Shown here: positions 4,524 through 50,400 of the stretch, one piece after another
Layout: each line of letters opens with the position of its first letter
How positions within the stretch are numbered: position 1 is the stretch's first letter
Origin: Blastocatellia bacterium
GTDB lineage: Bacteria; Acidobacteriota; Blastocatellia; HR10; J050
DNA length: 64,000 nt
Reading direction: 5' to 3'
NCBI GenBank assembly: GCA_026985075.1
Contig: JALSQX010000016.1
Location: 1 to 64,000 of the forward strand
Made by a program: the position numbers and the translations under genes
The notes under the pieces: generated by a model
What the model was told of the DNA's origin: nothing
What the model saw: only the letters and a program-made list of their open reading frames with translations
Database searches by the model: none

Positions 4524-4606
4524 AGGGAAGTATTTTTTGAGACGATTGGCGCTCTACTGTTCTGGAGGAGCGTGAATGGGGGAGAACGCGAGGAGAAAAT
4601 GAGACG

Positions 4607-23343: not shown

Positions 23344-23618
23344 CCTCCCCGCCGACCGGCGGCGGGGCTTCCAGGAGGGAGGGGAGCGGTCCGCGGGACG
23401 AGCTAGCCACGTGATGGCTCCCCGCCGACCGGCAGCGGGGTCTCTCCTGGGTGAGGGATGAGCCTTTCCACGAGCTGACGACTCTCCGCCAGCCATCGGC
23501 GAGGTTTCATGGGGCGGGCCCCGGAGCTGGTCTCCGGAGTCTCTGACGATGGTCAGTTCCTCACCTGGGAGCTTCCCCCCACTCTCCGAATACCCTGGGG
23601 CTGGCCTCCGGGGATCGT
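23344..23618 (+). repeat. 275-bp dispersed element, copy A
   Basis: Matches the reverse complement of 33696-33970 along its length. The core 23399-23512 agrees at 112 of 114 positions. Made of GC-rich palindromic blocks (CCCCGCCGACCGGCGGCGGGG; CCCCGGAGCTGGTCTCCGGAG). Confidence 0.85.
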
Positions 23619-23640
23619 TGCGCTCTCGCCTTGATACGCG

Positions 23641-30635: not shown

Positions 30636-30689
30636 GAGGAGTCACGAGAGCGGATCTTCTCTCTCGGCGCCGCCTGAGCCCGTTGTGCA

Positions 30690-33260
30690 TCAGGGCAATG
30701 CCACCGTCGCCATCGCCGATGTTCGGGAGTGCTCTTTCTTCTCTCCCGGCTGCTCCTGCGCCTTCTTGATGCGATTGATGGCGTTAGTGATGATCGACTT
30801 GGCGAATGGCGGCAGACCGGGCGCTCGGGCCGCTTCCTCCAGCGCCGGGAGCGCTCGCCGATCTCCCAATGCTCCCAGGGCCTGCGCGGCGCTGAAGCCG
30901 AGCTGGAACGATCGATTCCGGATGCCTTCCTCGAGTCCTTTGAGGAGGATGTCGAGCACGCGGTCATCGCCTTTGCCGATGGCGCCGAGCAATTGAAACG
31001 CCGAACTCCGCACCGTCGCTCGATGGCCCGGAGCGGCGTACTCCATAGCGATGTCCAGCGCCCGCGGGTCTTGAAGCGCGGCCAGTCCATCCATCGCCCC
31101 GGCGCGAATCACATCCCGCCAGGAATCCCGTTTCATGAGATCGACGAGTACATCATAGGCCCGTGGCGCGCGACTCTGCCCTAACGCTCGCGCCGCTTCG
31201 GCCACGGCAAAATAGCTGGGATCGGTCTGAATGATCTTGACGAAGAGATCGGCTAGCTCAGGATCTTTCAGAGCAGCCAGTCCACGAATCGCCGCCCGGC
31301 GGACGCGCGACTGTTCATCTTTCAGCGCTTTGAGCAATGCAGCCCGCACCGCTTCGGTCTGCTTCCCGGCCAAGGCCCTCACCGCCTCCAATCGCACGCC
31401 CCAGAAGGCATCGTGCAGAGCGGCTTCGGTCAACGCCTCGATGGCCGCGTCGCTGGATCGCGAGGCGAGTTCGACCGCTGCGCGAATGCGGCCGGTGACA
31501 TCTCGATCGTGGAGCAGTTGATAGGCCAGCGCCGCATCGCTGCGATCGAATTTCACTTCCTTGAGGATGTAATTCCCGCGATCGAAATTGATGATGAGCG
31601 GCTCACCGTCCACCGGGAAGGTGAACGTCTCTCGACGTTCATCGATCCACACGCGATGCACTTTCTCGCCCGAAGCCGTGGTGATGGCGATATCCACCGG
31701 GGTGATGAAGACGTCCGGCGATTGAAACCAGGGCCGCGTCTCATCGGGTTTCTGCGTTTGCGTGACGGTGAGGGTGAGCGTGTGGGCGCGCTCATCATAT
31801 TGAGAGGTGATTTCGAATCGGGGATGGCCCATCTTGTACACCCACTCATCGAAAAACCACTGAAGGTTCTGGCCCGTCGCCTCTTCGATGGCGATGACCA
31901 GTTGTGGCGTCTCGACGTTCTGCCAGGCGTATTTCTCCACGTAATGATGGATGGCGCGCCAGAAGAGTTCCTCGCCGAGCACGAACCGCAACATGTTGAG
32001 GACCGCGGCGCCGTGTGGATAGGCGTGGGTATCGAACATCGACCAGGGATTATCGTAGCGTTTGGTCACAATGGGTCGCCGGTTCCCGCGGCGCCAGGCC
32101 TGAAAGTATTGCCGCTGATTGCCGAACATTTCGTAGAGGTATTCCTCTTTCCCTTTGTCATGTTCGGTCCACACGTTGGCCATGAACGTGGCGAACGATT
32201 CGTTGAGCCAGATCTCGCCCCAATCGCGGCAGGTGAGCAGATCGCCGAACCACTGATGAGCGAGCTCGTGAGAGACGACGCCGTCGGAGGAGATGTCCAG
32301 ATGGGCGCGGCGATCGTGAACGAAGTTGTCGCCCAGCGTGGTGGCCGAGATGTTCTCCAGCCCTCCGGGAAAGCCGCGCACGGTCGTCTGGGCGTACTTG
32401 GGATAGGGATAGTCGTAGCCGAGCTTTTCGGAGAAGAACGCGACCATGTCCTTTAGCTTGCCGAACGAGAGGCGCGCGTTCTCTACCTGATCGGGATAGA
32501 CGTAAGAAATCACCGGAATATTCTTGAACCGATCCCTGAGTTCGGCGAATTGGCCGACGACGATGGAGATGAGGTAACTGGAGAAGGGTTTGTCTAATCG
32601 CCAATGCCAGGTCTTGGTCTTCTTCTCCGGATGGGGCGTCACGCTCACCAACGCTCCATTAGAGATCACCGTGTACTGATCTGCGACGGTGGCGATGACC
32701 TCGGCGGACGCGCGATCATTGGGGTAATCGTAGCAGGGGAACCAGTAGTGATTCGCTTCCGGTTGACCGGCCGTCCATATCTGATAAGGACGATCCGGCT
32801 CGCTCTCGGTCGGCGTGACGAACCTCAATCCTTCCCGGGGCACGGCTGTGTAGTTGATCGTGATGGCGATATCCTGACCGGCGGGATAGGCGCGATCCAA
32901 AGTAACGAAGAGCTTCTCGTCATCCTGATAGCGAAACCGAAGGGGCGTGCCATCGGCCAGCGTGACCGAGTGGATGGTCATGTGACCGGCGTCGAGTTGA
33001 ATCTCCTTCACATCGCTGCTGAACGGGCGCAGGATGATGGTCGTTTCGCCGGTCACCGATTTTTGAGCCCAATCGAAGCTGAGAACCAGGCGATAGTGCT
33101 GGACATCATAGGAATGACTGCGCGGCCATCGATAGGGCGGTGGCTCGGCAGTGGGCGCATGACCGGGGGCTTGCGCGAAGACGCCGTTCGAAAAGACGAA
33201 GAGGATGAGGACGAGCATGATGACTCGCCCGCGCTTCCCAGAGGGCCAAACATCGAACAT
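30690..33260 (-). CDS. Secreted M1-family aminopeptidase with C-terminal HEAT repeats
   Basis: 856 residues; GGAGG stands 7 bases before the ATG. Signal peptide (MLVLILFVFSNGVFAQ). M1 zinc site HELAHQWFGD followed by WLNESFATFMANVW, giving H-E-x2-H-x18-E. The exopeptidase motif reads FPGGLENISATTLG (GGLEN instead of GAMEN). Residues about 560-850 form HEAT-like helical repeats (AVRAALLKALKDEQSRVRRA, AIRGLAALKDPELADLF). It removes N-terminal residues from peptides. Together with the S46 and S9 enzymes it forms an exported peptide-degradation set. Confidence 0.95.
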   Translation of the reverse strand: MFDVWPSGKRGRVIMLVLILFVFSNGVFAQAPGHAPTAEPPPYRWPRSHSYDVQHYRLVLSFDWAQKSVTGETTIILRPFSSDVKEIQLDAGHMTIHSVTLADGTPLRFRYQDDEKLFVTLDRAYPAGQDIAITINYTAVPREGLRFVTPTESEPDRPYQIWTAGQPEANHYWFPCYDYPNDRASAEVIATVADQYTVISNGALVSVTPHPEKKTKTWHWRLDKPFSSYLISIVVGQFAELRDRFKNIPVISYVYPDQVENARLSFGKLKDMVAFFSEKLGYDYPYPKYAQTTVRGFPGGLENISATTLGDNFVHDRRAHLDISSDGVVSHELAHQWFGDLLTCRDWGEIWLNESFATFMANVWTEHDKGKEEYLYEMFGNQRQYFQAWRRGNRRPIVTKRYDNPWSMFDTHAYPHGAAVLNMLRFVLGEELFWRAIHHYVEKYAWQNVETPQLVIAIEEATGQNLQWFFDEWVYKMGHPRFEITSQYDERAHTLTLTVTQTQKPDETRPWFQSPDVFITPVDIAITTASGEKVHRVWIDERRETFTFPVDGEPLIINFDRGNYILKEVKFDRSDAALAYQLLHDRDVTGRIRAAVELASRSSDAAIEALTEAALHDAFWGVRLEAVRALAGKQTEAVRAALLKALKDEQSRVRRAAIRGLAALKDPELADLFVKIIQTDPSYFAVAEAARALGQSRAPRAYDVLVDLMKRDSWRDVIRAGAMDGLAALQDPRALDIAMEYAAPGHRATVRSSAFQLLGAIGKGDDRVLDILLKGLEEGIRNRSFQLGFSAAQALGALGDRRALPALEEAARAPGLPPFAKSIITNAINRIKKAQEQPGEKKEHSRTSAMATVALP

Positions 33261-34263
33261 ACATTACCTCCACCCAATGATGTTTTCTCCGATTCTCAGA
33301 CGCACGGCCGGATATTACACCACGCCTCATATGGATGTCTAGAGCCAGCGCGCCGCCCGGTGCGTCAAGTGAGAGCTGGGAGTTCCGGCGGCCCATGCCC
33401 TCTCCCAGGTGGCCGTGGGGTCAGCCGGTTCCGTCGGAGCCCGGCCACCGGCAACGCCACGCGGACATCACCCACCAGATTCGCTCCGCCACCAGGGACG
33501 GCCACCGTCACATCCTCGACCCTCAGTTCGCTTGATGGTCATGGGGGCGCCGGCATTCTTTGCGTTCTCGGGGAACTGCATTGACCGGGTATCGGATGGT
33601 TTCACTTCTCACGACCACCTGTCATCTGGCGCCCCCCGAGACCATCGCCGCTGGGCGGTGGGGAGCTGCGCGGCTGGTGGGGTGAGCGGGGAAGGAACGA
33701 TTCCCGGAGGTGAGTTCCGGGGTTTCCGGAGGGTGGGGGGAGTTCCGGGTGAGTAGCTGCCCATCGTCAGAGACCCCGGAGGCGAGCTCCGGGGCCTGCG
33801 CCATGACACCTCGCCGATGGCTGGCGGAGAGTCGTCAGCTCGTGGAAAGGCTCATCCCTCACCCAGGAGAGACCCCGCCGCCGGTCGGCGGGGAGCCATC
33901 ACGTGGCTAGCTCGTTCCGCGGGCGGTTCCCCTCCCTTCAGGAGGCCCCGCTGCTGGACGGTGGGGAGGGTCGGTTGTCAGCCAGTTTGCGGCACCCCCC
34001 TTCCTCTCCGGAGACATCCCGCCGCTCGCCCACAGGCCCAGAGGGGGCCGCCGGGCGCGTCCCCCGGCTTCGTGGTGTCCATTCGGAGTGAGTCGTCGTC
34101 TGGGGATGCTGCTGTGCTCTGCCCCTGACTCTCCTACGGCACTCCTGACTTCTGTCGGGCGCACTCCCGCGTCACCTTCCATCGAACGAAGCGGGCGCGA
34201 TTGCACAGCGCAAGTGGAATGAAATCGGCTCGCCCATCGTCGCATTTCGACAAACGAACCCTC
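33261..34263. other. 1.0-kb non-coding stretch with the inverted partner repeat
   Basis: Between the S9 hydrolase stop and the M1 aminopeptidase start. It holds copy B of the 275-bp element and further GC-rich palindromes. Plus-strand ORFs here follow the repeat and lack ribosome sites. Confidence 0.7.
33696..33970 (-). repeat. 275-bp dispersed element, copy B
   Basis: Reverse complement of 23344-23618. Contains GACCCCGCCGCCGGTCGGCG and repeated CCCGGAGGTGAGTTCCGGGG-type palindromes. Copies A and B are about 10 kb apart, facing each other around the thiolase-to-M1 segment. Confidence 0.85.
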
Positions 34264-35247
34264 TCACTTCAAATAGCGCGCCAGGAAGGCCTTGATTTTC
34301 CGCCAACTGTCGGCCGCCGTCCTGGTGTTGAGGCGATTGAACTGATGGCCGCCGGGAGGTTCTTCATAGATCTCGTATTCGAATTTCTTCCCGGCGGCCT
34401 TCAGCGCGTCGATGAGATGCATGAGTTCGTGGAGGCGCACGTCCCGGTCATTGGTCGCCGCATGGATGAGCAAAGGCGTTTGTAACCGATGAGCCTGATG
34501 CGCCGGGGAACGCTCCAGATAGGGCCGGAGATTCTCCCAGGGCGTGCCGCCGAATCCTCGTTGCTCGGCGAACGTGCGTCGATACCGCTCCGATTTATAT
34601 CCCATTCGCTCGACCAGATCGGAGACGCCCACAACGTTGACGCCGACGCGAAATTTCTCCGGCGCGCGATAGAGCGCGTGCATGGTGATGAAGCCGCCGT
34701 GCGACCAGCCGATGATGCCGATGCGATGGGGATCCACGTTAGGATGCATCTCCACCAGCCAGTCGCGGCCGCTGATGCAATCTTCGACCTCTTTGCCACC
34801 ATAGTCCAGCGCATGGTAATGACGGGCGCCATGATGGGTGCTTCCTCGATATTCGGGAGCGAGCACGATGTATCCCTCTCGGAGCATGTCGCGGATCAGC
34901 GGCCAGTAGTAATGATCCAGATGGCCATGGACGCCACCGTGAACCCAAATGAGGGCCGGTCGCTTCTCGTTGCCGATATTCAGGGGCGTCCATACATGCG
35001 CCGGGATGATATGTTCATCGGCCGAACTGGGATAGCGAATCTTCTCGTAGCGGGCGATGCCTTGCGCCTCGAGGAAGAAGCTGAGCTCCAGGCTTCGTTG
35101 CTCGGCCGCTTGCACGGCGAACTGAAGCGAGCGGATCTGACGTTCCAATCTCTCCAACCGAGCCTTCAGGTCATCCTGCTGCGCTTGCACGCGGGGAAGA
35201 CAGCACAGGACACTCCAAACCGCGATGATCACGTCTCGACGTCTCAT
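34264..35247 (-). CDS. Secreted S9-like prolyl-oligopeptidase-family hydrolase
   Basis: 327 residues; GAGGGAGCT precedes the ATG. Short signal segment (VIIAVWSVLCCLPRVQA), then a coiled coil (DDLKARLERLERQIRSLQFA). The alpha/beta-hydrolase domain carries the nucleophile GIIGWSHGGFITMHALY, an acid in AATNDRDVRLHEL and the His in PPGGHQFNRL. LIWVHGGVHGHLD gives the oxyanion-hole HG motif. Likely cleaves short peptides or esters in the periplasm. Downstream of the TonB receptor in the same direction (84 bases), so perhaps co-transcribed. Confidence 0.88.
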   Translation of the reverse strand: MRRRDVIIAVWSVLCCLPRVQAQQDDLKARLERLERQIRSLQFAVQAAEQRSLELSFFLEAQGIARYEKIRYPSSADEHIIPAHVWTPLNIGNEKRPALIWVHGGVHGHLDHYYWPLIRDMLREGYIVLAPEYRGSTHHGARHYHALDYGGKEVEDCISGRDWLVEMHPNVDPHRIGIIGWSHGGFITMHALYRAPEKFRVGVNVVGVSDLVERMGYKSERYRRTFAEQRGFGGTPWENLRPYLERSPAHQAHRLQTPLLIHAATNDRDVRLHELMHLIDALKAAGKKFEYEIYEEPPGGHQFNRLNTRTAADSWRKIKAFLARYLK

Positions 35248-35331
35248 AGCTCCCTCTCAACGTTGCGCCTGACTCACGGTATCTCCACCCACTAGGGGCG
35301 AACCTGGGCGGAGGTTCGCCGCCCGTGGGAC

Positions 35332-38300
35332 TCAGAAGTTGATTTTCAGAGCGAACTGCATCAGCCGCGGATTAGTGATCGTGCACGTGGTCTGTCCGAA
35401 ACTGAGACTGAAAATATTGGTGTTCGGCACGCAGAAATTCACGTTATTGAACGCATTGAACACCTCCCAGCGGAACTCCAGATCGGCCGTCTCCGTCATC
35501 TTGGTGCGCTTCGACAGGTTGAAGTCGAAAGTGAACCGACGCGGCCCGAAGATGGGCGTATGCCCCAGCTCGCCCAACTCTCCGGGGCGCGGCAATTGGA
35601 ACAGTCCTGGCGTGGCATCGGGGTCTGAGCACTGACCGCCGACGATGCTGGAGAGACACGGATCGAGCCAGAAGACGCCGCCGCCAATGGTCCGTCGACC
35701 GACCAGGCGGCGAAGTTCGTCGACGGTCAGCGGTTGAGAGAGGTTCACCGTGTTATCGTCGGAGATGGTGGAGCGATGGAATGTTCCCACGCCCGATGTG
35801 ATCGACAGCGGTCGGCCACTGCGCCAGTTGATGATGCCACCAAATTGCCACCCACTGATCAATGTCCTCCAAAAACCGGTCATACCGGCTCCCAGGGGTT
35901 TGTCCACACCGAAGGGCAGCTCATAAATCCAGTTGGCCTTGAACAGGTGGCGCGGCATGAACTCCTGGATGCTGTTGCGGGCGAACCGCACGGAACTCGC
36001 CCGGGTCGCATTAATCAACGTGTTCTCATCGCCATCGAAGTCGGCCAATGCTCTCCCGTACGTGTAGTTGGCCTGGAGAGTGAAACCACCTGAGAACCGT
36101 CGGCGCACCTCGATCTCCAAGGCATGATAGGTGGAGAAGCCATCGTTGACCATTCGGCGGGAACTGTGGACGAACGGATTGGCTTGGAAGAAATTGGCCG
36201 GGAAGCGACCTTGAAGGACGGCCCCCCAGAAACTCCCTCCGCGAATGCGCGGCTGGCCGGGGGCCGGTCGCGATGTCTCCCGTTGGGTGAGACGATAGAC
36301 GAATTCGCCCGTCTCATTGAAATCGAGGGCATCGATGAGCGCCGTCCGGCTGCGCAAGCGACTCGGATCGCCGGCGATGAGCGCATCCATGAGCGGATTG
36401 GGCACGCTACAGGGAAAATTCAGCGTATCGAAGCGATTGCCCGCTCCGTTGGCGCGATTGCACGCCAAGTTCTGTTTGGCGAGGATGAACGCCTCTAAGA
36501 ACGTCATGCCCGTCACCGGATCGAACGCCAGCACGTTGATCTCGTTGAAATCGGCGACGCGACGGAGTTTGACGCCGCGATTGCCCACGTACCGGATCTC
36601 GATGGCCGTGTTGGCGAACAGTTCCCGCTGGATACCCAGCGTCCACTCGTTGTAGTACGGCGTCTCCAGGTCGTCGGCGAAGGTCCGGAAATCCTGCGCC
36701 GTGCTGTCCAGGATGGTGCGCGTCACCGGCAGAACGAACGGCGGCACCGGAGCGACCGGAGGGCCGGTGGAGAGGACGTCGCGGAGCAGAGTGGGATTGT
36801 TCAGGCAATCGCCTTCGACGGGGATACAATCCTGATCGACGCGCAACCCTTCGTTGTCATCGACGTTCCCGTCGATGATGTTGAAGTGGTCTTGCATGTA
36901 GCTGATGCGAAATCCGGCGCGAATGGACGTCTTCCCATCGCCCCAGGGGTCCCAGGCGAAGCCGATGACCGGACCGAAATTATCCAGATCGTTCTTCCAC
37001 AACGGACGGCCATTGTTGGACCCCCCTGGACCATATCGGGTGGCACAGGTAGTGATCAGATTGATGGCGTTGCTCGTCGTCGGGTCCAGGGGAAGCTGTT
37101 CCAGGAGATCGCACGGCTGGCCAGCGAAGACGCCGGGATGGAAAAAGCCCTCGGGCCCGGAGATGCCGAATATGGCGTTTTCACCGCCTTCGGGGAGCAA
37201 CAGCAGCCCTTGCGTCTCGAAGGGCACGGTGGCGAATTCCCAGCGCAGGCCGAGATTGAGCGTGAAATGGGGACGCACATTCCAGTTGTCCTGGATGAAC
37301 CAGTCGAACTCCCGAACCTGATATCGTCGCCGTTCGGGGGCGTTGGGCACGAAGCCCGAGAAGAGCGAAGTGACGTTATAGCGAACTTCGACTTCGGCCA
37401 GGGCGCCAACCAGGTTATTGATCAGATCGCGGGCCGTCTCCATGTCCTGCGATTCAATATCCGAGCCGCCGGAGAGCGCGCGCAGATCCGCCTCGCTGAA
37501 TCCCGGAGGATTGTCGTTGTCGTCGAAGTCGATTTCTCCAAATGGATTGACCTCGTCAAAGCTATAGGTATCCACCCAGCGGTGGCGGAACTCGCCCCCA
37601 AACTTGATCTGGTGATTGCCGCGTACCCAACTGACCGTATCGCGGAGGTGGACGGTCACATTGTCACGAACCTCATCGTTGTTGCTCGAATCATAAGGAT
37701 CGGTGATCGTATTCAAGTCGAGCGTGAAGGGCGTACCGAACGGCTGGTTGACGAGAAAAGCATTCTCGCCTCCCAGATACCCGAAGCGGAATTCATTGAT
37801 GAGCGTCGGCGCGAACGTGGAGGTCACGCCGACGCTGTATCCGCGGGAGTGCGTGACGCGATCGCCCAGCGACCCCAGATCGGGATAGCGCGGTTCTCGA
37901 TTATTGATGAAATCGCCTTCGATGTTGCGATCGATGTAATTGAATGTGACATAGAAGGAGTGATTCTCATTGAAGCGATGATCCAGTCTGAAAGATGGGA
38001 GGTGTTCAACAGTAATCGATGGAGCATTGAAACGGAATCCACCGGTGTTGAGTCCGTCGCCGATGTCGAAATTATTGGGTAACGGAATGGCGCCGAACAC
38101 GGTCCCGGTGATGAAGGGATCGGGAGTGGCCGGACGGGTACCATCGAAGCGACCATCTACGCACTCTCGTCCCAACGCCGCCTGGATGGCTCCACCGCAT
38201 TCCATGAGGTCGACGCTTCGAATGAGCTCCGGATGGGCCGCGACATTCTCCGGCGTCGTGCGCAAGTTATCCAAGTACCGAAAGAGACCACGGCGCGCCT

Positions 38301-39321
38301 CGGCCGTATAGACGAGTCGATTGACGGCCACGCCTCGAGATTCGCGCGTCTGTTGATAGCCGAAGAAGAAGAAGGTCTTATCTTTGAAAATCGGTCCGCC
38401 AATGCGCCCGCCAAACTGGTTGCGGATGAGCTTGGGGCGCTCCACGCCCGCCGCGTTGTTGAAAAAGTCATTGGCGTTGAGCACGTCGTTGCGATGAAAC
38501 TCGAAGATCGAGCCGTGGAACTCGTTCGAGCCGGAACGGGTGACGGCGGTGATTTGAGCTCCACCACGGCTATACTCGGCCGAGGAGATGCCGGTGACCA
38601 CCTGGAACTCCTGCACATTCTCCGCCGCCAAGGCCAGCAGAGGTTGATCGAGCATGATCGAAGACGCACGATTGAAATTGTCCTGCGTATCAATACCGTC
38701 CAGTGTGATATTGATGGAGCGATGGCGCTGACCATGAACGAACAGCTTGTTCCCTTGACCGTCGGGACTCCGCTCGAAGTAGACGCCGGCCTGAAGAAAC
38801 GCCAGGTGCGAAGCGTTGCGCCCATTGAGCGGAAGTTCCAGGACCCGGCGCTCATCGACCACTGTACTCAATTCAGCATCCACCGTATTGACGATTTCCT
38901 GAGCCATGCCGGCCGTGATCTCCACCTCTTCCTGGAGTTCGCCGACTTGCAAGGTGATATTCAGGTCGGCCGTTTGACCGACTTCCACAATCGCGTCTCG
39001 CACGACGGCGCGACGGAAATTGGGCGCTTCCACGGCCACGGTGTACCGTCCCAGGCGGACGTTGGGAATGACGAACGTCCCGATGGCCGAGGTCTTAGCC
39101 CGATAGACGGTATTGGTGGCCACGTGGGTGGCGATGACGCTGGCGCCGGGAATGACCGCGCCGGTCTCATCCATCACGACCCCTTCGATGCGACCGGTCA
39201 GCTCCTGAGCGGCCATTGCTCCCACCCCGAGGAGGAGCATCAGGCATCCGCTCACCAGCAGTCGTCTGACTGGCCGCGGTTGGGTGCGCGTTGATTCGAA
39301 TCTGCCCATCATTATCCTCAT
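35332..39321 (-). CDS. TonB-dependent receptor, Oar-like, with carboxypeptidase-regulatory domain
   Basis: About 1329 residues from the ATG at 39321, fixed by AAGGAGGT (39326-39333). Signal segment (LLVSGCLMLLLGVGAMAAQ). A carboxypeptidase-regulatory beta-sandwich (GRIEGVVMDETGAVIPGASV ... VAVEAPNFRRAVV) precedes the plug (LELPLNGRNASHLAFLQAG; VTRSGSNEFHGSIFEFHRND) and a long outer-membrane barrel ending in QFALKINF with a terminal Phe. Such receptors are abundant in Acidobacteriota and import or bind sugars and peptides using TonB energy. Its place between the sigma/FGase-like locus and secreted hydrolases suggests it may be a regulon member (inference). Confidence 0.95.
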   Translation of the reverse strand: MRIMMGRFESTRTQPRPVRRLLVSGCLMLLLGVGAMAAQELTGRIEGVVMDETGAVIPGASVIATHVATNTVYRAKTSAIGTFVIPNVRLGRYTVAVEAPNFRRAVVRDAIVEVGQTADLNITLQVGELQEEVEITAGMAQEIVNTVDAELSTVVDERRVLELPLNGRNASHLAFLQAGVYFERSPDGQGNKLFVHGQRHRSINITLDGIDTQDNFNRASSIMLDQPLLALAAENVQEFQVVTGISSAEYSRGGAQITAVTRSGSNEFHGSIFEFHRNDVLNANDFFNNAAGVERPKLIRNQFGGRIGGPIFKDKTFFFFGYQQTRESRGVAVNRLVYTAEARRGLFRYLDNLRTTPENVAAHPELIRSVDLMECGGAIQAALGRECVDGRFDGTRPATPDPFITGTVFGAIPLPNNFDIGDGLNTGGFRFNAPSITVEHLPSFRLDHRFNENHSFYVTFNYIDRNIEGDFINNREPRYPDLGSLGDRVTHSRGYSVGVTSTFAPTLINEFRFGYLGGENAFLVNQPFGTPFTLDLNTITDPYDSSNNDEVRDNVTVHLRDTVSWVRGNHQIKFGGEFRHRWVDTYSFDEVNPFGEIDFDDNDNPPGFSEADLRALSGGSDIESQDMETARDLINNLVGALAEVEVRYNVTSLFSGFVPNAPERRRYQVREFDWFIQDNWNVRPHFTLNLGLRWEFATVPFETQGLLLLPEGGENAIFGISGPEGFFHPGVFAGQPCDLLEQLPLDPTTSNAINLITTCATRYGPGGSNNGRPLWKNDLDNFGPVIGFAWDPWGDGKTSIRAGFRISYMQDHFNIIDGNVDDNEGLRVDQDCIPVEGDCLNNPTLLRDVLSTGPPVAPVPPFVLPVTRTILDSTAQDFRTFADDLETPYYNEWTLGIQRELFANTAIEIRYVGNRGVKLRRVADFNEINVLAFDPVTGMTFLEAFILAKQNLACNRANGAGNRFDTLNFPCSVPNPLMDALIAGDPSRLRSRTALIDALDFNETGEFVYRLTQRETSRPAPGQPRIRGGSFWGAVLQGRFPANFFQANPFVHSSRRMVNDGFSTYHALEIEVRRRFSGGFTLQANYTYGRALADFDGDENTLINATRASSVRFARNSIQEFMPRHLFKANWIYELPFGVDKPLGAGMTGFWRTLISGWQFGGIINWRSGRPLSITSGVGTFHRSTISDDNTVNLSQPLTVDELRRLVGRRTIGGGVFWLDPCLSSIVGGQCSDPDATPGLFQLPRPGELGELGHTPIFGPRRFTFDFNLSKRTKMTETADLEFRWEVFNAFNNVNFCVPNTNIFSLSFGQTTCTITNPRLMQFALKINF

Positions 39322-39325
39322 GGCG

Positions 39326-39333
39326 ACCTCCTT
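39326..39333 (-). promoter_or_regulatory. Strong ribosome binding site of the TonB receptor gene
   Basis: AAGGAGGT with 4 bases to the ATG at 39321; decides this start over an upstream in-frame one at 39360. Confidence 0.75.
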
Positions 39334-39423
39334 CCTTGAGACCTCCCGGATCGTTCGCATTGCGCCACAATGGGCAGTGCGGGTACCCCAGGGCGCAAGG
39401 CCGGGGCCACCGAGTCCCCGAAT

Positions 39424-41097
39424 TCACTCAGGAAGCCGGGAGACCCGAACAGTGTATGATCCCACGCCAATACTCAGGCGCCGGCGCATGGCTCCACTCA
39501 AGTAGAGGCGACCAGCCGGACTCTCATAAGGGTAGACCCGAGCCACGGCTTGCCTTTCTCCAGATGAGACGAGGGCCGGATCGCCGGCGCGCAGTTGCAG
39601 TCGCTCCATACTCGATCGGTTCATCAGGATGGCGTTGTGCCCATACTTGGCCAGCAGATCGAGGGGGACTTTGGCCACGGTTGTGAAAGTGAGCACCGTC
39701 TGGCGTCCCGGTCGAGCGTAAGAGGAGATGATCTCGACATCCACATTACCGAGAACGCCCGCTAAGGCGTCAATGAGTCGAGCGCGCACCGCCGGATCGC
39801 GCCGCACGGCGCGACTGAATTCGATGTGGGCGAACAGGGAATTCACCGATGACGTCAAGATCCCCTGCTGATCCATCGTTCCAGAGATGTCGGCATAATG
39901 CTTCCCATCGTAGACGCCCACGCGAACGAATTGCTCCATCTCGCTGGCCAAGGCGACGTGGAGTTGCCGCACCACCGGTTCGGTGATGGCGCCCGAAGAG
40001 ATGACCACATCGGGATATTCGGCGCGGCCGGGCCTCTTCTCATCGAACCCGTGGAGAGAGAGACAAATGGCCTGAGGGCGCATGGCGGCGCGAAAGACGG
40101 CATTGAAGATCGAGCGGCGCGTATGAGCCTCATCGACATAATCGCTCCGCGCCCCGCTCAGGAGAAAGGCATCGGCGCCGGGAATGCGGCTGAAGCACTC
40201 AAAACCGAGCCATCCCGTGCCGACGTCCCGGAGCGCATGAGAGGCGACAATGATGAGTCGGCCATCGTAGTGATCGCGTCGAAAGAAAAACGTACCCCGG
40301 CCGCGAACCCGATCGGGTTTTTCCTCGAGGATGAGCGCCTTCAGGCCATTCGTATCCTCGAAATCCACAATCCGGTAACCCGCTTGATCGGCCGCCTGAC
40401 TGGCTTCGGCCAGGAGCGATTCGTTGTGGACGCGAAGGCTCAGCGTGACCAACTCGACCGCTTCCTCCATAGCTCTCAACTCGGCTTCCGAGGGAGCAAC
40501 ATAAATGACCCGCTCAGACTGCCGGAGCAAGGCGGCGACCTTATCGGCCAAGCGACCGCGCTCTTTCACCAGGGGTTTCGGTTGACCGCTGAAGCGGAGA
40601 ATGGCGTTAGCATTGGGGAAAAACCAGGGCAAGACCAGGAGCGCGACAGAGACGGTCAGCAAGCAGGTAATGGCGCCCATGGCGAAAGGCTTCCAGTGAG
40701 CGCGAGGTAGCACTCTCAATCGACGACTGAGTGAGAGATGGTGACTCGACGTCGCGGAAGGAAGGCGTTCTCCGGATGGAGCGTCTCTTTCTCCTCCCGA
40801 GTGGCCGAAGCTTTGATAGTGTCTCCGGAACGCCTCCAGGATGCGCGCACACTGCCGACAATGCAAGGAAGAACGAATGTCCTCCAACGACGCATCGCCC
40901 ACCAGATAGGCCTGCCATGCGATCTGATCTCTCACCCGAGACCACAACTGCTGTTCATCCGATGGGCTTCTCTGTCCTGCCTCGGTCTCCAGCCACTGCC
41001 CAACCTGATGCAGGATCTCGGCATCGCTCGGTTCCCGGGCCGGAGAACCTCGGCTCCTCCCCGTGCGACGCCATGGAGGCCAAATGCGTTTCACCAT
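39424..41097 (-). CDS. Membrane anti-sigma-like protein with extracytoplasmic FGase-like domain
   Basis: 557 residues. Cytoplasmic part 1-137 with LEDIRSSLHCRQCARILEAF, an H-C-x2-C motif reminiscent of zinc-finger anti-sigma factors. One membrane helix at 138-160 (FAMGAITCLLTVSVALLVLP). The external region about 235-445 resembles N-formylglutamate-amidohydrolase-type folds: VASHA, DEAHT, CLSLHGF, PDVVISSGA and AHIEFSRAV. These stretches also align with the protein at 41861-42973. The last ~70 residues (NAILMNRSSMERLQLRAGDP, YLSGAMRRRLSIGVG) suggest a double-psi beta-barrel. Its start overlaps the sigma-factor stop by 7 bases. I infer an anti-sigma factor whose sensor is a retooled peptidase-like domain; the family is not established. 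Confidence 0.65.
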   Translation of the reverse strand: MVKRIWPPWRRTGRSRGSPAREPSDAEILHQVGQWLETEAGQRSPSDEQQLWSRVRDQIAWQAYLVGDASLEDIRSSLHCRQCARILEAFRRHYQSFGHSGGERDAPSGERLPSATSSHHLSLSRRLRVLPRAHWKPFAMGAITCLLTVSVALLVLPWFFPNANAILRFSGQPKPLVKERGRLADKVAALLRQSERVIYVAPSEAELRAMEEAVELVTLSLRVHNESLLAEASQAADQAGYRIVDFEDTNGLKALILEEKPDRVRGRGTFFFRRDHYDGRLIIVASHALRDVGTGWLGFECFSRIPGADAFLLSGARSDYVDEAHTRRSIFNAVFRAAMRPQAICLSLHGFDEKRPGRAEYPDVVISSGAITEPVVRQLHVALASEMEQFVRVGVYDGKHYADISGTMDQQGILTSSVNSLFAHIEFSRAVRRDPAVRARLIDALAGVLGNVDVEIISSYARPGRQTVLTFTTVAKVPLDLLAKYGHNAILMNRSSMERLQLRAGDPALVSSGERQAVARVYPYESPAGRLYLSGAMRRRLSIGVGSYTVRVSRLPE

Positions 41098-41753
41098 GAT
41101 GACTTCATCCCTCCCAGGCGATGGAGTTCGGTGCGTATTTTCCGACAGGCCGCGCGGCGACGATTATCAACCCAGTGAGGTTTCCGTCCAACAATCTCGG
41201 CCACCTCACAGCGGTCGAGGCCCATGGCCAGCAGATCCAATACGCGCCGCTCATCGGGTGTGCAGACACGAAGCGCCACCTGCATGATGTGATGATAGTT
41301 GAGTCGCGCTTCGGCGTGACGGATGTCCTTACTCGTGGATTCGATCAGGCATTGCGGCGGGATCTCCTCAAGCGGCAGATGAGGGAATTGGTGCGCGTGC
41401 CGCTTCATGTTGCGCGTGAGGTTCTCGCAGGTCTTGATGAGAAATGCGAGAATTGGTTTCCGGCTCGGACACGTCGAGCGCCGCCGGAAGAAGGTTCCCC
41501 GTCGGAGATCGGTCCACAAAATGACCCAGGCCGATTGGAGCACGTCTTCGATGGTCGCTTCATCCCAGGACCACCGTTGCAGGTAGGCGGCCAAATAGCG
41601 GTTATAAGCGAAAAAGAGTCTCTCCAAAAGTTGATCGAGCGACAGAATCAATTGCTGGTACTCGCGGAGGAGTTTCCCCTCATCGAGCGTGAGGAGCGGA
41701 GCCTCTCGGGGGCGAGCCTCGCGCAATTGAAATGTCAACAGCTTGGGCGACAT
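41091..41753 (-). CDS. ECF-type sigma factor
   Basis: 220 residues from the ATG at 41753 (AGGA 7 bases upstream); a GTG two codons earlier is also in frame. Region 2: LLERLFFAYNRYLAAYLQRW, TIEDVLQSAWVILWTDLRR and KPILAFLIKTCENLTRNMKR. Region 4: CTPDERRVLDLLAMGLDRCE, VAEIVGRKPHWVDNRRRAAC. It diverges from the sigma factor at 3948. TATATA at 41765-41770 could belong to its promoter. Translationally coupled to the membrane anti-sigma-like gene. Confidence 0.85.
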   Translation of the reverse strand: MSPKLLTFQLREARPREAPLLTLDEGKLLREYQQLILSLDQLLERLFFAYNRYLAAYLQRWSWDEATIEDVLQSAWVILWTDLRRGTFFRRRSTCPSRKPILAFLIKTCENLTRNMKRHAHQFPHLPLEEIPPQCLIESTSKDIRHAEARLNYHHIMQVALRVCTPDERRVLDLLAMGLDRCEVAEIVGRKPHWVDNRRRAACRKIRTELHRLGGMKSSW

Positions 41754-41860
41754 AACCACGTCCTATATATACGTGTCACGAGTCGCACAATGTTGTAAGT
41801 GGGCGAACGTTTCTCTTGACACTCAGCCCCTCTCGCCAGGGTGGGCGCGATCCCGTTTCC

Positions 41861-42973
41861 TCACCGACGAGTTTCCCGGAGTGGGGTCATCGAGGCGGAC
41901 TCCGCGCGCGGCGGAAATAGAGCGGCGAACGCCTCTACGGCAACTTGATATGAGACGGCGTCGGGTCGCGCGCAACTCGACATCTGTCGTAGCGCACAAC
42001 TCTGTTCCAGGTGGATGAATCTTTCCGGCAGGGATGGATGGGCGACGCCTTGCCGACAGATATCGAGCGACCCATTGACGAATCGTCCTTGTACATTGGT
42101 CGTTCCGCAGAGCCGATCCGGGCCATCCACCTGGTTGCAACTCGCCGCTCGCAATGAGACGCCGAGGTGGTGAAAGAGGCGATTATACTCCGCGGCCAGC
42201 TCGATACTCAGGCTCTCGAGGCGATCGGCGCGCGTTCCATTACTGACGATGACATCGGGATCTCCTGGTCGCCATCGAAATCCGTGGACGGAGACGCTAA
42301 TCACGTCGAGGAAGTGCATGACGATCTCTTCGTGAGCCGGCTCGAAGAAATTTTGAGTGTAATGGGCGACGTCGGAGATGGGATAGGGCGCGCGACTCCC
42401 CGTACAGGTCGTCGTCGTTCCATCGCACGGGCTCGGCTCTGAGTTGGCACAACGGTGCGTACCAGCGATGAGTAAAGCCACAGCATCGAGGTCAAGGAAT
42501 AGCGCGATGCTCTCAGGGCGCGTATTCGCATCGCCGCCCGCATGTGGGGCGTGAATGCTGAGAGGACGACGGGCCTCCGGATTATAGATGTAGGTGCCTA
42601 ATCCGCGGAGTGGTTGGCCCTCGGCATCAGTTCGTTCACTGAGAATATAGTAGAGGTGGGCTCGCCCCTGATCGGTGAAGGCGATGAGGTCATATCCCAA
42701 GGGATCAGCCAGCGCCGCCGCCCGTTCATACTGACCGTCGAGCAGTGCCTCTATGGTCTGACGCCAACCGAGAACGTCGGCATCGCTCGGAGGAATGAAC
42801 GCTTCCGTTCGTCGTCCGGGAAGTGGCCGCTGATTGAGGAACGCTTCTATATCGCCGGACATCCTCATGACCGACGACCGATGAAGAGGAAGATCGGGAG
42901 ATGAGAATCCGGGCAATAGGACGATCAACGTCGCTGCCCATATCGCGGTCAACGCGGTCCGCGAGTCATTCAT
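41861..42973 (-). CDS. Secreted FGase-like domain protein, paralogue of the sensor at 39424
   Basis: 370 residues; GGGAG precedes the ATG. Signal peptide (ALTAIWAATLIVLLPGFSS). The single domain shows candidate metal and catalytic residues: LSIHAPHAGGDANT, ALLIAGTHRC, SDVAHYTQNFFEPAHEEIV, SVSVHGFRW, PDVIVSNGT and RFIHLEQSCALR. These follow the order of the His, Asp, His-rich, LDLHS and Q-I-E-x-N/S motifs of N-formylglutamate amidohydrolases. Cysteines may form disulfides. Active-site-like residues look better kept here than in the 39424-41097 protein, so this may be the working enzyme. It lies 42 bases after the GT2 gene and 107 before the sigma gene. Confidence 0.6.
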   Translation of the reverse strand: MNDSRTALTAIWAATLIVLLPGFSSPDLPLHRSSVMRMSGDIEAFLNQRPLPGRRTEAFIPPSDADVLGWRQTIEALLDGQYERAAALADPLGYDLIAFTDQGRAHLYYILSERTDAEGQPLRGLGTYIYNPEARRPLSIHAPHAGGDANTRPESIALFLDLDAVALLIAGTHRCANSEPSPCDGTTTTCTGSRAPYPISDVAHYTQNFFEPAHEEIVMHFLDVISVSVHGFRWRPGDPDVIVSNGTRADRLESLSIELAAEYNRLFHHLGVSLRAASCNQVDGPDRLCGTTNVQGRFVNGSLDICRQGVAHPSLPERFIHLEQSCALRQMSSCARPDAVSYQVAVEAFAALFPPRAESASMTPLRETRR

Positions 42974-43015
42974 GAGGCTCCCCCCTCCCCATGGCCCTGA
43001 TGTCGTCGCGCGACG

Positions 43016-44608
43016 TCAGAGCCGAAGGTGATCCCCTCTCGTCACTTCGGTTGTTGAGAGTTGAGATGAGCGCATTCTCTGCCGGGCGCGGATTTCCATC
43101 GACCGCAGCCAGTCTTTGTAGGCGTCGTAGCGATTCATCGTCGCCAGCGGGAGAGCACGATCGGTATTCTCCTCCCACCGTCGCGCCAGGTAGAGGGAAT
43201 CAAAGATCCGACCGATTTCATACTCTCGACTGATACGCAATCCCACGGCGTAATCCTCGCCATAACTCACATTGGGGAAGCCGAAGCGTCGCAAGAGCGG
43301 GACATAGAACGCGCGCGGCGCGCCCAATCCATTGATGCGGAGTGCGTTATTCCGACCATTTTCTCGGGTCCACTCGCGGTGATCGACGAGCCCCGGCGGG
43401 ATCTCCTCCAGATCAACGTTGACCGTCGTGTACGAGCCGATGACCATGGCATAGCGAGGAATCCCCCGTTGCCGGGGATCGGAGCCATCAGGCCACGGTT
43501 CCCAGAACTTCTCGATGATCCTCTCCAGCACGTGCGTGTCGGCGTAGAGGTCGTCCGAATCGAGCTGAACGGCAAACATTCCACATTCGGGGGCGGTGAT
43601 CGCTTCGTTCCAGCAACCACCAATGCCCAGATCCGTCCGCCGAGGAATCTTGTGGATGAGGCGCTCGTGCCGGGCGGCCAATGTGCGCAAAATCCCGGTC
43701 GTTCCATCCGTGGAGTGATTATCGATCACGATGACGTTGTATGCGAATGATGTCGATTGACCAAGGGCACTGTGCACAGCCTCGGCGATGGTCTTCTCTC
43801 GATTGCGAACCGGAATGACGACGCTCGCCGTCACCGGAAAATCCTCGCCAGGAGGGGGCGGCAGCGCAAACACCGGATCCAGATAAGCGCCTAATCGCCG
43901 GAGATGTGCCGTGGCCACGCGTTCCATCTCCAACTGGTAGGATCGATTTCGCGGATCGACATACTCGAAAATCTTCTCGGCCGCCGAGGGCGAGGGGGTC
44001 TCGCTCGTGCTACTGGCTGTGTACAGTGATTCGGGAATGCGCACCAGAGGAGCATCAAGCGAGAGCTTCAATCGCAGATCGTAGAAGCCAGCCCACCGCA
44101 GCGCGGGATCAATCGCACCGTGGGCGTCCAGAGCCCGTCCGGCCGCCCTCCGGGAGATCACGACGAGCGGGCCAAAATCGAACGTATCCCGAATGCTTCC
44201 CAGTTGATAGGCGATCGTGGGATGCTCCACGATCTGGTGATCGCGCCGCTCATGGAAGTCCGAATAGACGAGCCCCGCTCCCGCCTCTTCGATGACGGCG
44301 AGGAATCGTTCCAGCGTTCGTTGTCCGAGGTCGATGTCATAGCCCGGTCGAATGAGCACCAGCGCCTCGCTCTCCACCGCCTCGAGAAGGCGATGCACGT
44401 CGATGCCCGATAGCCAGGTGGCCATCTGAAGGCGCTGTATTTTTCTCTGTCGATCGGCGGTGAGGTTCATCGCCGGCGCGGAATCCTGACAGAAGATCAG
44501 CACGCGCGCAACCAGAGCTTCCGCGGCGAACATCTCGACCTGTCGGGAGAGTTGGGTCGGCGTCCTCCACGTTGACGAATGAGGCAGAATGACGGTGAAT
44601 GGTTCCAT
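43016..44608 (-). CDS. Glycosyltransferase family 2 protein with two GT-A-like halves
   Basis: 530 residues, cytoplasmic. The C-terminal half (about 265-510) is a clear GT2 domain: TASVVIPVRNREKTIAEAVH, VIDNHSTDGTTGILR and FAVQLDSDDLYAD, where DSDD is the metal/UDP-sugar motif. The N-terminal half (about 1-240) has a GT-like fold without that motif (GLVYSDFHERRDHQIVEHPT, DTFDFGPLVVISRRAA), so it may be a degenerate second GT-A domain. No membrane helix. Donor and acceptor unknown; envelope or glycan synthesis is likely from its neighbours gmhA and DUF1460. No strong ribosome site was found. Confidence 0.87.
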   Translation of the reverse strand: MEPFTVILPHSSTWRTPTQLSRQVEMFAAEALVARVLIFCQDSAPAMNLTADRQRKIQRLQMATWLSGIDVHRLLEAVESEALVLIRPGYDIDLGQRTLERFLAVIEEAGAGLVYSDFHERRDHQIVEHPTIAYQLGSIRDTFDFGPLVVISRRAAGRALDAHGAIDPALRWAGFYDLRLKLSLDAPLVRIPESLYTASSTSETPSPSAAEKIFEYVDPRNRSYQLEMERVATAHLRRLGAYLDPVFALPPPPGEDFPVTASVVIPVRNREKTIAEAVHSALGQSTSFAYNVIVIDNHSTDGTTGILRTLAARHERLIHKIPRRTDLGIGGCWNEAITAPECGMFAVQLDSDDLYADTHVLERIIEKFWEPWPDGSDPRQRGIPRYAMVIGSYTTVNVDLEEIPPGLVDHREWTRENGRNNALRINGLGAPRAFYVPLLRRFGFPNVSYGEDYAVGLRISREYEIGRIFDSLYLARRWEENTDRALPLATMNRYDAYKDWLRSMEIRARQRMRSSQLSTTEVTRGDHLRL

Positions 44609-44865
44609 CAGTCAACGCGCGTTGGATCACCAGGACCACGACATTCGCCATTCCATCCTCGGATGACGACGTGGTCCTCGATGGAAAGAATGTACAGCAA
44701 GCTATTGTATCACTGGGATTCGAAGGACTCCAGGCCCTCGGTGTGCGCATCAGAGGGTGTGGACCTCGAAGGATCAGAGGACGCGGAGGAGAGAGACGTG
44801 GGGGCTTCAGCGATGTGGGCGGTTCCAGGTCATGGTTTGTGGCGGAACGATACCCGTCGATGAGG

Positions 44866-45600
44866 CTATGCGTTCCTGGAAGATCCTCTCGGTCGCACCA
44901 GAATGAATCCGGACATGCTGTGTTGCTGCAGGAATGTCTCCACGGGCTGCTCGACCACGCTTCCTCGGCGACGCGAGGCGTGCCGTAAGATGAGGCCGTC
45001 TCGCCCTCGGAAGAGCAATCCCATGTGGAAGACATCGAGATGCTTCCGCGTGGAAACGAAGAAGATCACGTCTCCATCGACAATTCGATCCTCAATACGG
45101 GGGAAGGCGCGTTTGCGAAAACAGCGAAACGTCACCGAGCGGGGCGGGAGTTCTGGGATCGTACTCAACACCCGCGTCTTGTTCACCGTGCCCCGTCCCT
45201 CACTGATGTTCAGGATGAACCCTTGTTCGACATTACGAGCGATCCAATCGATCATATAGTGATTTCGCGTTCGCCAGCCGACCTGACCTCCCTGATAGCG
45301 GAGATGGCGAAGAGTGTCGATGAATTGAGGGATGGTGTCAGAGAGGGCCAGGGCGAGGACGGTCTCCACATAGGTCACGCAGTCGAACCCGGTGAGCGAA
45401 ATAGTGAACACTTCGGGCGTCTCGGCGGAACCGATGAGCGGATGGACGATGTAGGGAGAACCCAGAAACTGAGCGGAGACGATGTTCAGGCGTTCGCCTA
45501 TGACGGGCACATCGCGGATCCGTTCGAGGATTTCCTCGGCCCGGGTGGGATCGAAATTTTCGGGATAGGGGGTGATGATGTCCGTCGCCTTTTCGGTCAT
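44866..45600 (-). CDS. DUF1460 NlpC/P60-like amidase
   Basis: 244 residues. DUF1460 hallmarks: FTISLTGFDCVTYVETVLAL with the catalytic Cys, NHYMIDWIARN, and FHMGLLFRGRDGLILRHAS with the catalytic His. Characterised relatives act as N-acetylmuramoyl-L-alanine amidases or cut cell-wall peptides. Members are normally exported, but no signal peptide is visible from the ATG at 45600, and only 36 bases separate it from the gmhA stop, leaving little room for one. Either it acts inside the cell or the start is in an unusual place. Confidence 0.85.
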   Translation of the reverse strand: MTEKATDIITPYPENFDPTRAEEILERIRDVPVIGERLNIVSAQFLGSPYIVHPLIGSAETPEVFTISLTGFDCVTYVETVLALALSDTIPQFIDTLRHLRYQGGQVGWRTRNHYMIDWIARNVEQGFILNISEGRGTVNKTRVLSTIPELPPRSVTFRCFRKRAFPRIEDRIVDGDVIFFVSTRKHLDVFHMGLLFRGRDGLILRHASRRRGSVVEQPVETFLQQHSMSGFILVRPRGSSRNA

Positions 45601-45636
45601 AAGAGGGCTCTCCCCGTGCGATGGAGGAACGGTGCA

Positions 45637-46257
45637 TTAACCGAGCGAGTGTTCGATCAGATCACACCAGATATGCCCGATGGTGATGTGCACCTCCTGA
45701 ATACGCGCCGTCGAGGGACTGGGAACGATGATGGGCACGTCGACGAGATCTTTCACCAGGCCTCCGTCTTTTCCCAGGAGACCGATGGTCTGGAGTCCTC
45801 GTTCCCTGGCCGTGTGGACGGCGCGGACGATATTGGCCGAGCGACCACTGGTGGTGATGGCGATGGCCACATCGCCCTCCTCACCGAGAGCTTCGATTTG
45901 TCGGCTGAACACGTCTTCGAATGTCGTGTCATTGGAAATAGAGGTCAGAATCGACGTATCGGTCGACAGAGCGATGGCGGCGATCGCCGATCGTTCCATC
46001 TGATACCGGTTCACCAGTTCGGCGGCGAGATGTTGCGCATCGGCGGCGCTCCCTCCATTTCCGAACAGGAGAATTTTTCTTCTCGCGCGTACGGCATCGA
46101 TGAGCAGCAACGCGGCGCGCGCCAGATCATTGGCATGTTGGGAGAAGAAGCGAATCTTCAGGTCCACCGTGGCATTGGCGATCTCGACGATGCGATTGGT
46201 CAATCGTTCATCGACCGATTCGCTGGGTCGTCGAATGAAATCTGCTCTCTTGCTCAT
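45637..46257 (-). CDS. gmhA: SIS-domain sedoheptulose-7-phosphate isomerase
   Basis: 206 residues, normal GmhA length. SIS fold with KILLFGNGGSAADAQHLAAE, NRYQMERSAIAAIALSTDTS, NDTTFEDVFSRQIEALG and ITTSGRSANIVRAVHTARER. GmhA makes heptose-7-phosphate, the precursor of ADP-heptose and of other activated heptoses for lipopolysaccharide or surface glycans. It precedes the DUF1460 gene by 36 bases and follows uvrA by 110. Confidence 0.92.
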   Translation of the reverse strand: MSKRADFIRRPSESVDERLTNRIVEIANATVDLKIRFFSQHANDLARAALLLIDAVRARRKILLFGNGGSAADAQHLAAELVNRYQMERSAIAAIALSTDTSILTSISNDTTFEDVFSRQIEALGEEGDVAIAITTSGRSANIVRAVHTARERGLQTIGLLGKDGGLVKDLVDVPIIVPSPSTARIQEVHITIGHIWCDLIEHSLG

Positions 46258-46367
46258 AGCGAATGTCCATTTTCGATCTCCCCACCAGGATGCACGGGAC
46301 GCCGAGATCGCTCAGGACGACGCGGTCCCGTTCCCGGAGCGCTCTGGCCTCTTCGGGGAGTCGATCA

Positions 46368-49187
<2,820 letters not shown>

Positions 49188-49323
49188 GGCCTCGTTCCCC
49201 CAGCGAGCGAAGTAGTATTTGGTTCAAACTGCAAATTGTATGAACCTCCGAAGAGATTGGTCAAGCCATATCGCTATTCTCTCTTGATCGGCGGGGCGTC
49301 TGCGCCTACAATGTCGCCCTCCG

Positions 49324-50400
49324 ATGATGGCCTGGCGAGGTGTCATAGAGGAATTTCGAGAGTTCTTGCCGCTGAGCAAAAGGGTGAAACCGGTCACCTT
49401 GCTGGAAGGCAACACCCCGTTGATCCCCTCCCGTGCGCTCAGTCATCAACTCGGTCTCTCGGCGAAAGTATATTTCAAATTCGAAGGACTCAACCCGACC
49501 GCTTCATTCAAAGATCGGGGTATGACCGTGGCCGTATCCCAGGCGGTTTGGGAAGGTGCCCGAGCGGTCATTTGCGCCTCCACGGGCAATACGGCGGCCT
49601 CGGCGGCTGCCTATGCCGCCCGAGCGGGCCTGGAGTGCATCATCGTCTTGCCTCAGGGCGCGTTCGCTAAAGGGAAGTTGGTCCAAGCTCTCATGCATGG
49701 CGCAAAAGTCGTCGCCATCGACGGGAACTTTGACGCCGCCCTCTCCATCGTTCGCGAGATTGCCGCCACCTATCCCATCACCCTGGTCAACTCGGTCAAT
49801 CCGTATCGGCTCGAGGGACAAAAGACGGCCGCCTTTGAAATATGCGCCCAGTTGGGTGGAAGAGCCCCTGATTATCTTCTCCTGCCGGTGGGAAACGCCG
49901 GCAACATCACCGCCTACTGGATGGGATTCACCGAATATTACCAGCACGGCTTGATCTCCCGGCGTCCCCGGATGCTGGGATTCCAGGCCAGCGGCGCCGC
50001 TCCCATTGTACGAGGGCGGCCCATCGCTCATCCCAAGACGATCGCCAGCGCGATTCGCATCGGTCATCCAGCCAGTTGGGACAGGGCCATTCGCGCCAGA
50101 GACGAATCGGGGGGAATGATCACCACAGTCACCGATCGCCAAATCCTGCGAGCCTATCGATTATTAGCCAAGCATGAGGGAATCTTTGCCGAGCCCGCCT
50201 CAGCGGCCTCCGTCGCTGGACTCATTAAACTGGCCAATGAAGGCTACTTCACCGGAAGGAAGACCATCGTCTGTGTCCTCACCGGCCACGGACTCAAAGA
50301 TCCGGATACCGCACTCTCACGGGGTCAACGGGTGGTCACGGCCCGGGCCGATGTGAATGCTGTCGTCAGGGCAGCGCAGCTCCATCGTTGGCGGTCATAG
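49324..50400 (+). CDS. thrC: Threonine synthase
   Basis: 358 residues; ATG at 49324 or the adjacent one at 49327. The PLP lysine is in KFEGLNPTASFKDRGMTVA. CASTGNTAASAAAYAARAGL binds the PLP phosphate region, and LPVGNAGNITAYWMGF and AEPASAASVAGLIKLA follow. Length and motifs fit the short bacterial threonine synthase. It converts O-phosphohomoserine to threonine. Same strand as thrB, lysC and asd, but two unrelated secreted-protein genes intervene. Confidence 0.95.
   Translation: MMAWRGVIEEFREFLPLSKRVKPVTLLEGNTPLIPSRALSHQLGLSAKVYFKFEGLNPTASFKDRGMTVAVSQAVWEGARAVICASTGNTAASAAAYAARAGLECIIVLPQGAFAKGKLVQALMHGAKVVAIDGNFDAALSIVREIAATYPITLVNSVNPYRLEGQKTAAFEICAQLGGRAPDYLLLPVGNAGNITAYWMGFTEYYQHGLISRRPRMLGFQASGAAPIVRGRPIAHPKTIASAIRIGHPASWDRAIRARDESGGMITTVTDRQILRAYRLLAKHEGIFAEPASAASVAGLIKLANEGYFTGRKTIVCVLTGHGLKDPDTALSRGQRVVTARADVNAVVRAAQLHRWRS

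Follow-up and report, generated by a model that had tools for sequence, protein, structure and literature searches.

A putative sigma factor/membrane sensor module for the scavenging of acidic poly-amino acids in a Blastocatellia genome

Gene content and organization of the locus

The window analysed here is a stretch of 64,000 nt (positions 1-64,000, to which all coordinates refer unless another locus is named) from the genome of a Blastocatellia bacterium, a soil-type Acidobacteriota (assembly GCA_026985075.1, contig JALSQX010000016.1). It contains a gene for a divergent extracytoplasmic function (ECF)-type sigma factor, which is located between the genes for two hydrolase-like proteins, P3 and P1, all three being encoded on the minus strand (Table 1). 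The open reading frames have exactly the positions and sizes given in an initial annotation of this DNA, and the overlap noted there between the P1 and sigma genes amounts to 7 bp, between the start of P1 and the stop of the sigma gene. The sigma factor matches TIGR02937 over residues 44-212 (E=5e-8; 32.7 bits, below the curated cut-off of 42.9) and Sigma70_r2 with E=0.036. Promoter and terminator scans gave results at chance level, and a quick search of the intergenic regions for an ECF promoter pattern gave no match.

Comparison with a genome of the same genus (G001) shows that the three genes belong to a block of approximately 8.8 kb that is absent there: the flanks (30000-33346 and 43018-49500, 90-91% identity) are contiguous in G001, with about 115 bp between them. 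Exactly five genes are missing, namely P3, the sigma gene, P1, an Oar-like TonB-dependent outer-membrane receptor gene and an S9-type hydrolase gene, and since they are present or absent together they can be considered as one module. No foreign base composition was seen. A GC-rich dispersed repeat (33685-33994), which has more than 80 partial matches in the genome and one 87% copy at 23344-23619, lies next to the variable block and is absent at the G001 junction.

Table 1. Genes and protein features of the five-gene block, all coordinates in the window.
Feature	Coordinates	Strand	Remarks
Block absent from G001	34215..43017	-	about 8.8 kb; comparison with same-genus genome
P3	41861..42973	-	370 residues; predicted secreted PGA (poly-gamma-glutamate)-hydrolase-like protein
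Sigma gene	41091..41759	-	222 residues; divergent ECF-type; GTG start
P1	39424..41097	-	557 residues; proposed anti-sigma/sensor
P1 HCxxC motif (residues 79-83)	40849..40863	-	in cytoplasmic helical region modelled at low confidence
P1 transmembrane helix (residues ~138-160)	40618..40686	-	hydropathy; helix 132-159 in AlphaFold model
P1 external PghP-like domain (residues ~198-448)	39754..40506	-	fold match and family alignment
P1 C-terminal CDC48_N-like double-psi beta-barrel (residues 485-553)	39439..39645	-	sub-threshold Pfam match
Oar-like TonB-dependent outer-membrane receptor	35332..39360	-	likely true start 39321, behind AGGAGG; directly 3' of P1
S9-type alpha/beta hydrolase	34264..35247	-	327 residues; last gene of the module

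A hydrolase-like domain shared by P1 and P3

A BLASTP comparison shows P1 and P3 to be homologous (E=6e-7, 23% identity over 348 residues), and the catalytic-type motifs by which the initial annotation had aligned the external part of P1 with P3 are in register in a 15-sequence family alignment. The shared domain matches no Pfam or NCBIfam family, and is a member of an undescribed family for which neither database has a model.

AlphaFold models of P1 and P3 were built with 7-8 relatives and have mean predicted local distance difference test (pLDDT) values of 61 and 68, respectively, with blocks of the P1 domain between 53 and 94. In a Foldseek comparison with the PDB, the P1 model matched best with 5onj (YndL/PghL with PGA bound; E=1.4e-5, target template-modelling (TM) score 0.61), followed among hydrolases of this class by PghP (3a9l; E=5.6e-5, target TM 0.60), and the N-formylglutamate amidohydrolase 2q7s was among its ten best matches (E=1.4e-4, target TM 0.44). 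For the P3 model 2q7s came first (E=1e-3), followed by the phage PGA hydrolases 21dc and 3a9l, and its match to PGA hydrolase structures was weaker than that of P1 (E=4.6e-3, target TM 0.46). These models support a carboxypeptidase A (CPA)-like zinc amidohydrolase fold, a class which includes N-formylglutamate amidohydrolase; as modelled, the domain has its best fold match in PghL/PghP (E ~1e-5), with N-formylglutamate amidohydrolase as a more distant relative. The original assignment to N-formylglutamate-amidohydrolase-like zinc hydrolases thus holds for the fold class, but the structures nearest to P1 are the PGA hydrolases 5onj and 3a9l, ahead of 2q7s. PF05013 (N-formylglutamate amidohydrolase) is matched by neither P1, P3 nor their relatives, the likeness being one of fold only. 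PF05908 is likewise not matched by P1 or P3, and the best relative (G032) reaches E=0.013 and 15.4 bits against a gathering cut-off of 22. A canonical PF05908 gene is present elsewhere in the window's genome (G000 C67:80005-80574, L055), and G001 keeps one beside an acyl-CoA-ligase-like gene.

In PghP/PghL, residues His41, Glu46, His77, His102 and Glu165 are essential, with His41, Glu46 and His102 as zinc ligands (PMC6506827). They align with H287, D291, H325, H349 and E426 of P1, all retained in its external domain together with R432, and with H144, D148, H204, H230 and E323 of P3. By this alignment P3 possesses zinc-type residues H144, D148 and H230, the base E323 and substrate-type residues H204 and R329, and it carries the family motifs HR (173-174) and NVQGR (293-297). 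Columns H, D, HG, H-x-E and R are invariant in 13 members from four phyla. P1 has no HR loop and, of the NVQGR motif, lacks N and R; almost all other members keep these, and with their loss P1 may be better at binding than at cleavage.

The closest relative of P3 is a protein of G016 (39% identity). The P1 domain groups with the CapC-linked member of G032 and with that of G106 (tree support 0.96, and 0.65 once PF05908 members are added), and it is more similar to a PgsBC-linked protein of Chroococcidiopsis (E=5e-16, the homology beginning just past the membrane helix) than to P3 (E=6e-7). Because its domain is nearer to proteins linked to PGA synthesis than to P3, the two are not recent twins: the secreted "twin" of the initial annotation shares a common ancestor with the P1 domain, but the latter is closer to the PgsBC/CapC-linked proteins. 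P1 thus resembles a membrane anchor of anti-sigma type to which a PGA-hydrolase-like protein of another branch has been fused.

Architecture and conservation of the sigma/P1 pair

The HCxxC motif and the single membrane helix ascribed earlier to P1 were both found. The N-terminal part of the protein is basic, a basic stretch precedes the membrane helix, and the N-terminus is predicted to be inside. The barrel-like end corresponds to a CDC48_N-type double-psi barrel (Pfam E=3.5e-4, 21.1 bits, sub-threshold to the curated cut-off of 35.1; PDB 7dg9, E=0.011); in the AlphaFold model pLDDT is <50 for the barrel, which is not resolved, and for a large part of the N-terminal region.

Searches for P1 in 98 relatives, and with a P1-inclusive profile in 162 genomes of the class and 396 of the phylum, found P1 in the window's genome only, apart from distant matches to the domain. 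The sigma factor, searched likewise, had no copy outside the window's genome, a search for related loci with P1 alone gave nothing, and no match to P1 was found among plasmids and phages. The trio of sigma factor, sensor and secreted paralogue, whose lack of conservation in relatives the initial annotation had named as refuting its reading, was found in no other genome searched. In G016, the P3 relative is followed by a sigma gene and then by a zf-HC2 anti-sigma gene. Elsewhere in the window (3948-8120), a second ECF sigma factor gene is followed by genes for a 208-residue protein that matches CarboxypepD_reg weakly and for a 964-residue TPR-CHAT protein, possibly a sigma-CHAT protease system.

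Genomic neighbourhoods of the hydrolase family

Members of the family occur in a minority of the Blastocatellia and in scattered other genomes, and their neighbourhoods are of two recurrent kinds, PGA synthesis and polyaspartate degradation. Genes for PGA synthesis (PgsB/PgsC/CapC) adjoin family members in three phyla: a member is located beside CapC in the Acidobacteriota genome G032, directly 3' of pgsB-pgsC on plasmid pCHRO.01 of Chroococcidiopsis thermalis (L110 7887-8930), and, on a plasmid of Streptomyces finlayi (L113 4866-5771), in the vicinity of pgsB and capA. Judged by gene context, the two plasmid-borne proteins are candidate PGA-processing enzymes of pgs synthesis loci. Another member is found on S. 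clavuligerus pSCL4 (L112 5785-6777), and all three plasmid members are annotated as hypothetical protein or unannotated. A 1105-residue CapC-domain protein of G106 (L053 2688-6005) also matches the N-terminal half of the family (E ~1e-10). On a Corynebacterium ureicelerivorans plasmid (L111 3981-6197), the domain is part of a 738-residue protein encoded between phage tail genes on one side and a lysin-type gene on the other, a context which suggests a phage capsule depolymerase reminiscent of phage-borne PghP. CapC was not found in the window's genome, which therefore probably consumes polymer rather than makes it.

The second kind of neighbourhood involves PahZ1, which cleaves beta-amide bonds (PMC4456602), and PahZ2. 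In G041 and G072 the family member is fused to a domain resembling PahZ1 (65% identity to the reference in both; 6ve6, E=8.5e-54 for G041), in G090 it precedes a PahZ2-PahZ1 fusion (7ljh, E=1e-84; 6ve6, E=7e-53), and in G157 and G100 it shares a cluster with PahZ1. PahZ1 is present in 8 of 161 class genomes, six of which carry the hydrolase family (hypergeometric p ~3e-7 with 10 family carriers, a value that is optimistic because the genomes are related). PahZ2-like M20 matches were rejected as stand-alone evidence, since 100 of the 161 class genomes gave a match and the M20 family is present in most of these; the window's genome has only a PahZ2-like M20 match elsewhere, and no PahZ gene is located at the window locus. 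Clusters of this polyaspartate type are found together with DctA or DASS transporters. Five of the loci have a gene for an Oar-like outer-membrane receptor immediately 5' of the hydrolase gene, and the conserved unit is P3 plus the receptor. The window receptor is 71, 70 and 68% identical to the cluster receptors of G100, G085 and G076, and 39% identical to its nearest paralogue in its own genome. Between the window and the G085/G100 loci the receptors are 70% identical and P3 only about 30%, which indicates very different rates or else different histories. In G085, the receptor is present in two tandem copies ahead of the hydrolase gene (L028 717-9858), and at another locus (L089 7741-11291) PahZ2 and PahZ1 are encoded in a row with a BhcC-like homologue of 3-hydroxy-D-aspartate aldolase (E=1.7e-43, which does not reach the equivalog cut-off); this arrangement hints that the natural substrate may include D- or hydroxy-aspartate.

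Taken as gene context, the family supports a poly-amino-acid substrate, since PgsBC and PahZ1/2 as neighbours point to polymers rather than formyl peptides. Of the formyl- or gamma-glutamyl-type peptides originally proposed as ligands, the gamma-glutamyl-type chemistry is retained, but the neighbours indicate polymers and not formyl peptides. PGA and beta-polyaspartate, both acidic chains with side-chain amide links, cannot be separated as substrates.

Proposed function and alternative explanations

We favour, at somewhat better than even confidence, the interpretation that the five genes form an accessory module in which a substrate-sensing sigma/anti-sigma switch with RsgI-like logic serves the scavenging of an acidic poly-amino acid. 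The module would find and use side-chain-linked chains such as PGA or beta-linked polyaspartate. P3, presumably exported, would be an endo-hydrolase with a fold of the PghP class, the Oar-like receptor would take the fragments through the outer membrane, and the S9 hydrolase may complete their breakdown. The N-terminal cytoplasmic part of P1 would hold the sigma factor at the inner membrane until its outer PghP-like domain binds, or slowly cuts, incoming fragments; a conformational change or regulated proteolysis of P1 would then free the sigma factor, which would transcribe the receptor and hydrolase genes. A bolder version is rather doubtful, although conceivable: here the membrane anti-sigma factor would read the polymer through a depolymerase-type domain that is catalytically competent, the system would be the first to sense and scavenge a natural acidic poly-amino acid in this way, and the hydrolase family would be a new and widespread class placed at both PgsBC synthesis and PahZ eating loci, which would provide the PahZ enzymes with a natural context of poly-amino acids.

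Several observations weigh against the proposed module. The N-terminal part of P1 matches no anti-sigma family in Pfam or NCBIfam, and has neither the canonical HxxxCxxC of zinc-anti-sigma factors nor a zf-HC2 match; the sigma/P1 pair is a singleton among the genomes searched. The structure models were built from 7-8 sequences only (mean pLDDT 61 and 68), and nucleoside phosphorylases and M28 aminopeptidases match the P1 model at similar E-values, with lower target TM. All sequence-only links of the family to PF05908 are sub-threshold, a profile-profile comparison with PF05908 was weak (hhalign P=0.022, in register), and one with PF05908 members at fewer sequences gave nothing. The PahZ1 genomes all belong to one family (f5), which inflates the co-occurrence statistic, and P3 is only about 31% identical to the PahZ-linked members, so that their substrate may not carry over. 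P1 might instead be an active membrane-tethered hydrolase that is translationally coupled to the sigma gene by chance, the sigma factor being regulated otherwise (e.g. by expression level). Such a role, which we regard as unlikely, would fit the retention of all metal and catalytic-type residues and the unmatched N-terminal region, but the 7-bp overlap, the single helix after a basic stretch and the HCxxC in a helical N-terminus are the usual layout of a membrane anti-sigma factor, and P1 has lost the HR and NVQGR motifs that are kept elsewhere in the family.

It is also improbable, in our estimate, that the module senses and degrades small peptides from the cell wall or of formyl/gamma-glutamyl type (N-formylglutamate-type compounds, peptidoglycan stem peptides). 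The rank of 2q7s, top match of P3 and among the ten best of P1, and an AmiA-like gene upstream agree with such substrates; PGA hydrolases are nevertheless the best matches of P1, the family neighbours are PgsB/PgsC/CapC and PahZ1/PahZ2, and the AmiA-like gene is outside the five-gene block, in the part common to G001. A chance juxtaposition, with a receptor and hydrolase pair acquired beside an unrelated sigma/anti-sigma pair and no regulatory link, seems very improbable: P3 relatives in other genomes are not accompanied by the sigma factor and P1, and P3, P1 and the receptor differ in their degree of divergence, but the external domain of P1 is homologous to P3, all five genes point in one direction and come or go together, and the P3 relative of G016 also adjoins a sigma/anti-sigma pair. 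Should the polymer-sensing module be real, the cell may turn on the scavenging of acidic amino-acid polymers in response to the polymers themselves. A hydrolase family without a Pfam model links PGA synthesis genes and polyaspartate hydrolases, so that it becomes directly testable what PahZ-type enzymes act on in nature and what happens to PGA in soil.

Comparison with known systems

PghP/PghL (MEROPS M86, PF05908) give the best fold match of P1, with metal, substrate and base residues in the same order (H...D/E, H, H, E...R), but there is no sequence match at family level (best member E=0.013), the first acidic metal ligand is Asp in P1/P3 and Glu in PghP/PghL, extra N-terminal helices are present, and P1 is membrane-tethered and carries a barrel. 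PahZ1 and PahZ2 share loci, and even polypeptides, with P3 relatives in the Blastocatellia; they have other folds (alpha/beta hydrolase and M20, respectively) and are not found at the window locus. Systems of the FecI/FecR/FecA type similarly cluster a sigma factor, a membrane regulator and a TonB-dependent receptor, but P1 has no FecR match, the N-terminus of the window receptor is a CarboxypepD_reg domain without a signalling-domain match, and sensing is proposed here to be carried out by an enzyme-like domain.

SigI/RsgI of Clostridium thermocellum comprises a membrane anti-sigma factor whose outer enzyme-type domain (GH10 or S1C peptidase-like) senses the polymer to be degraded; the RsgI sensors include GH10 and a cellulose-binding peptidase-like domain (PMC12203970). 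The N-terminal domain of RsgI and its self-cleaving periplasmic domain were not found in P1 (Pfam/NCBIfam), and the present system is Gram-negative, includes an outer-membrane receptor and would address a poly-amino acid instead of a polysaccharide. By analogy, RsgI is the closest working precedent for P1, which is not an RsgI by family. With P1, the sensing of a polymer through an enzyme-type domain carried by an anti-sigma factor, as known from RsgI, would extend to poly-amino acids and to a phylum of Gram-negative bacteria; the P1/sigma architecture is a variant of substrate-sensing anti-sigma systems.

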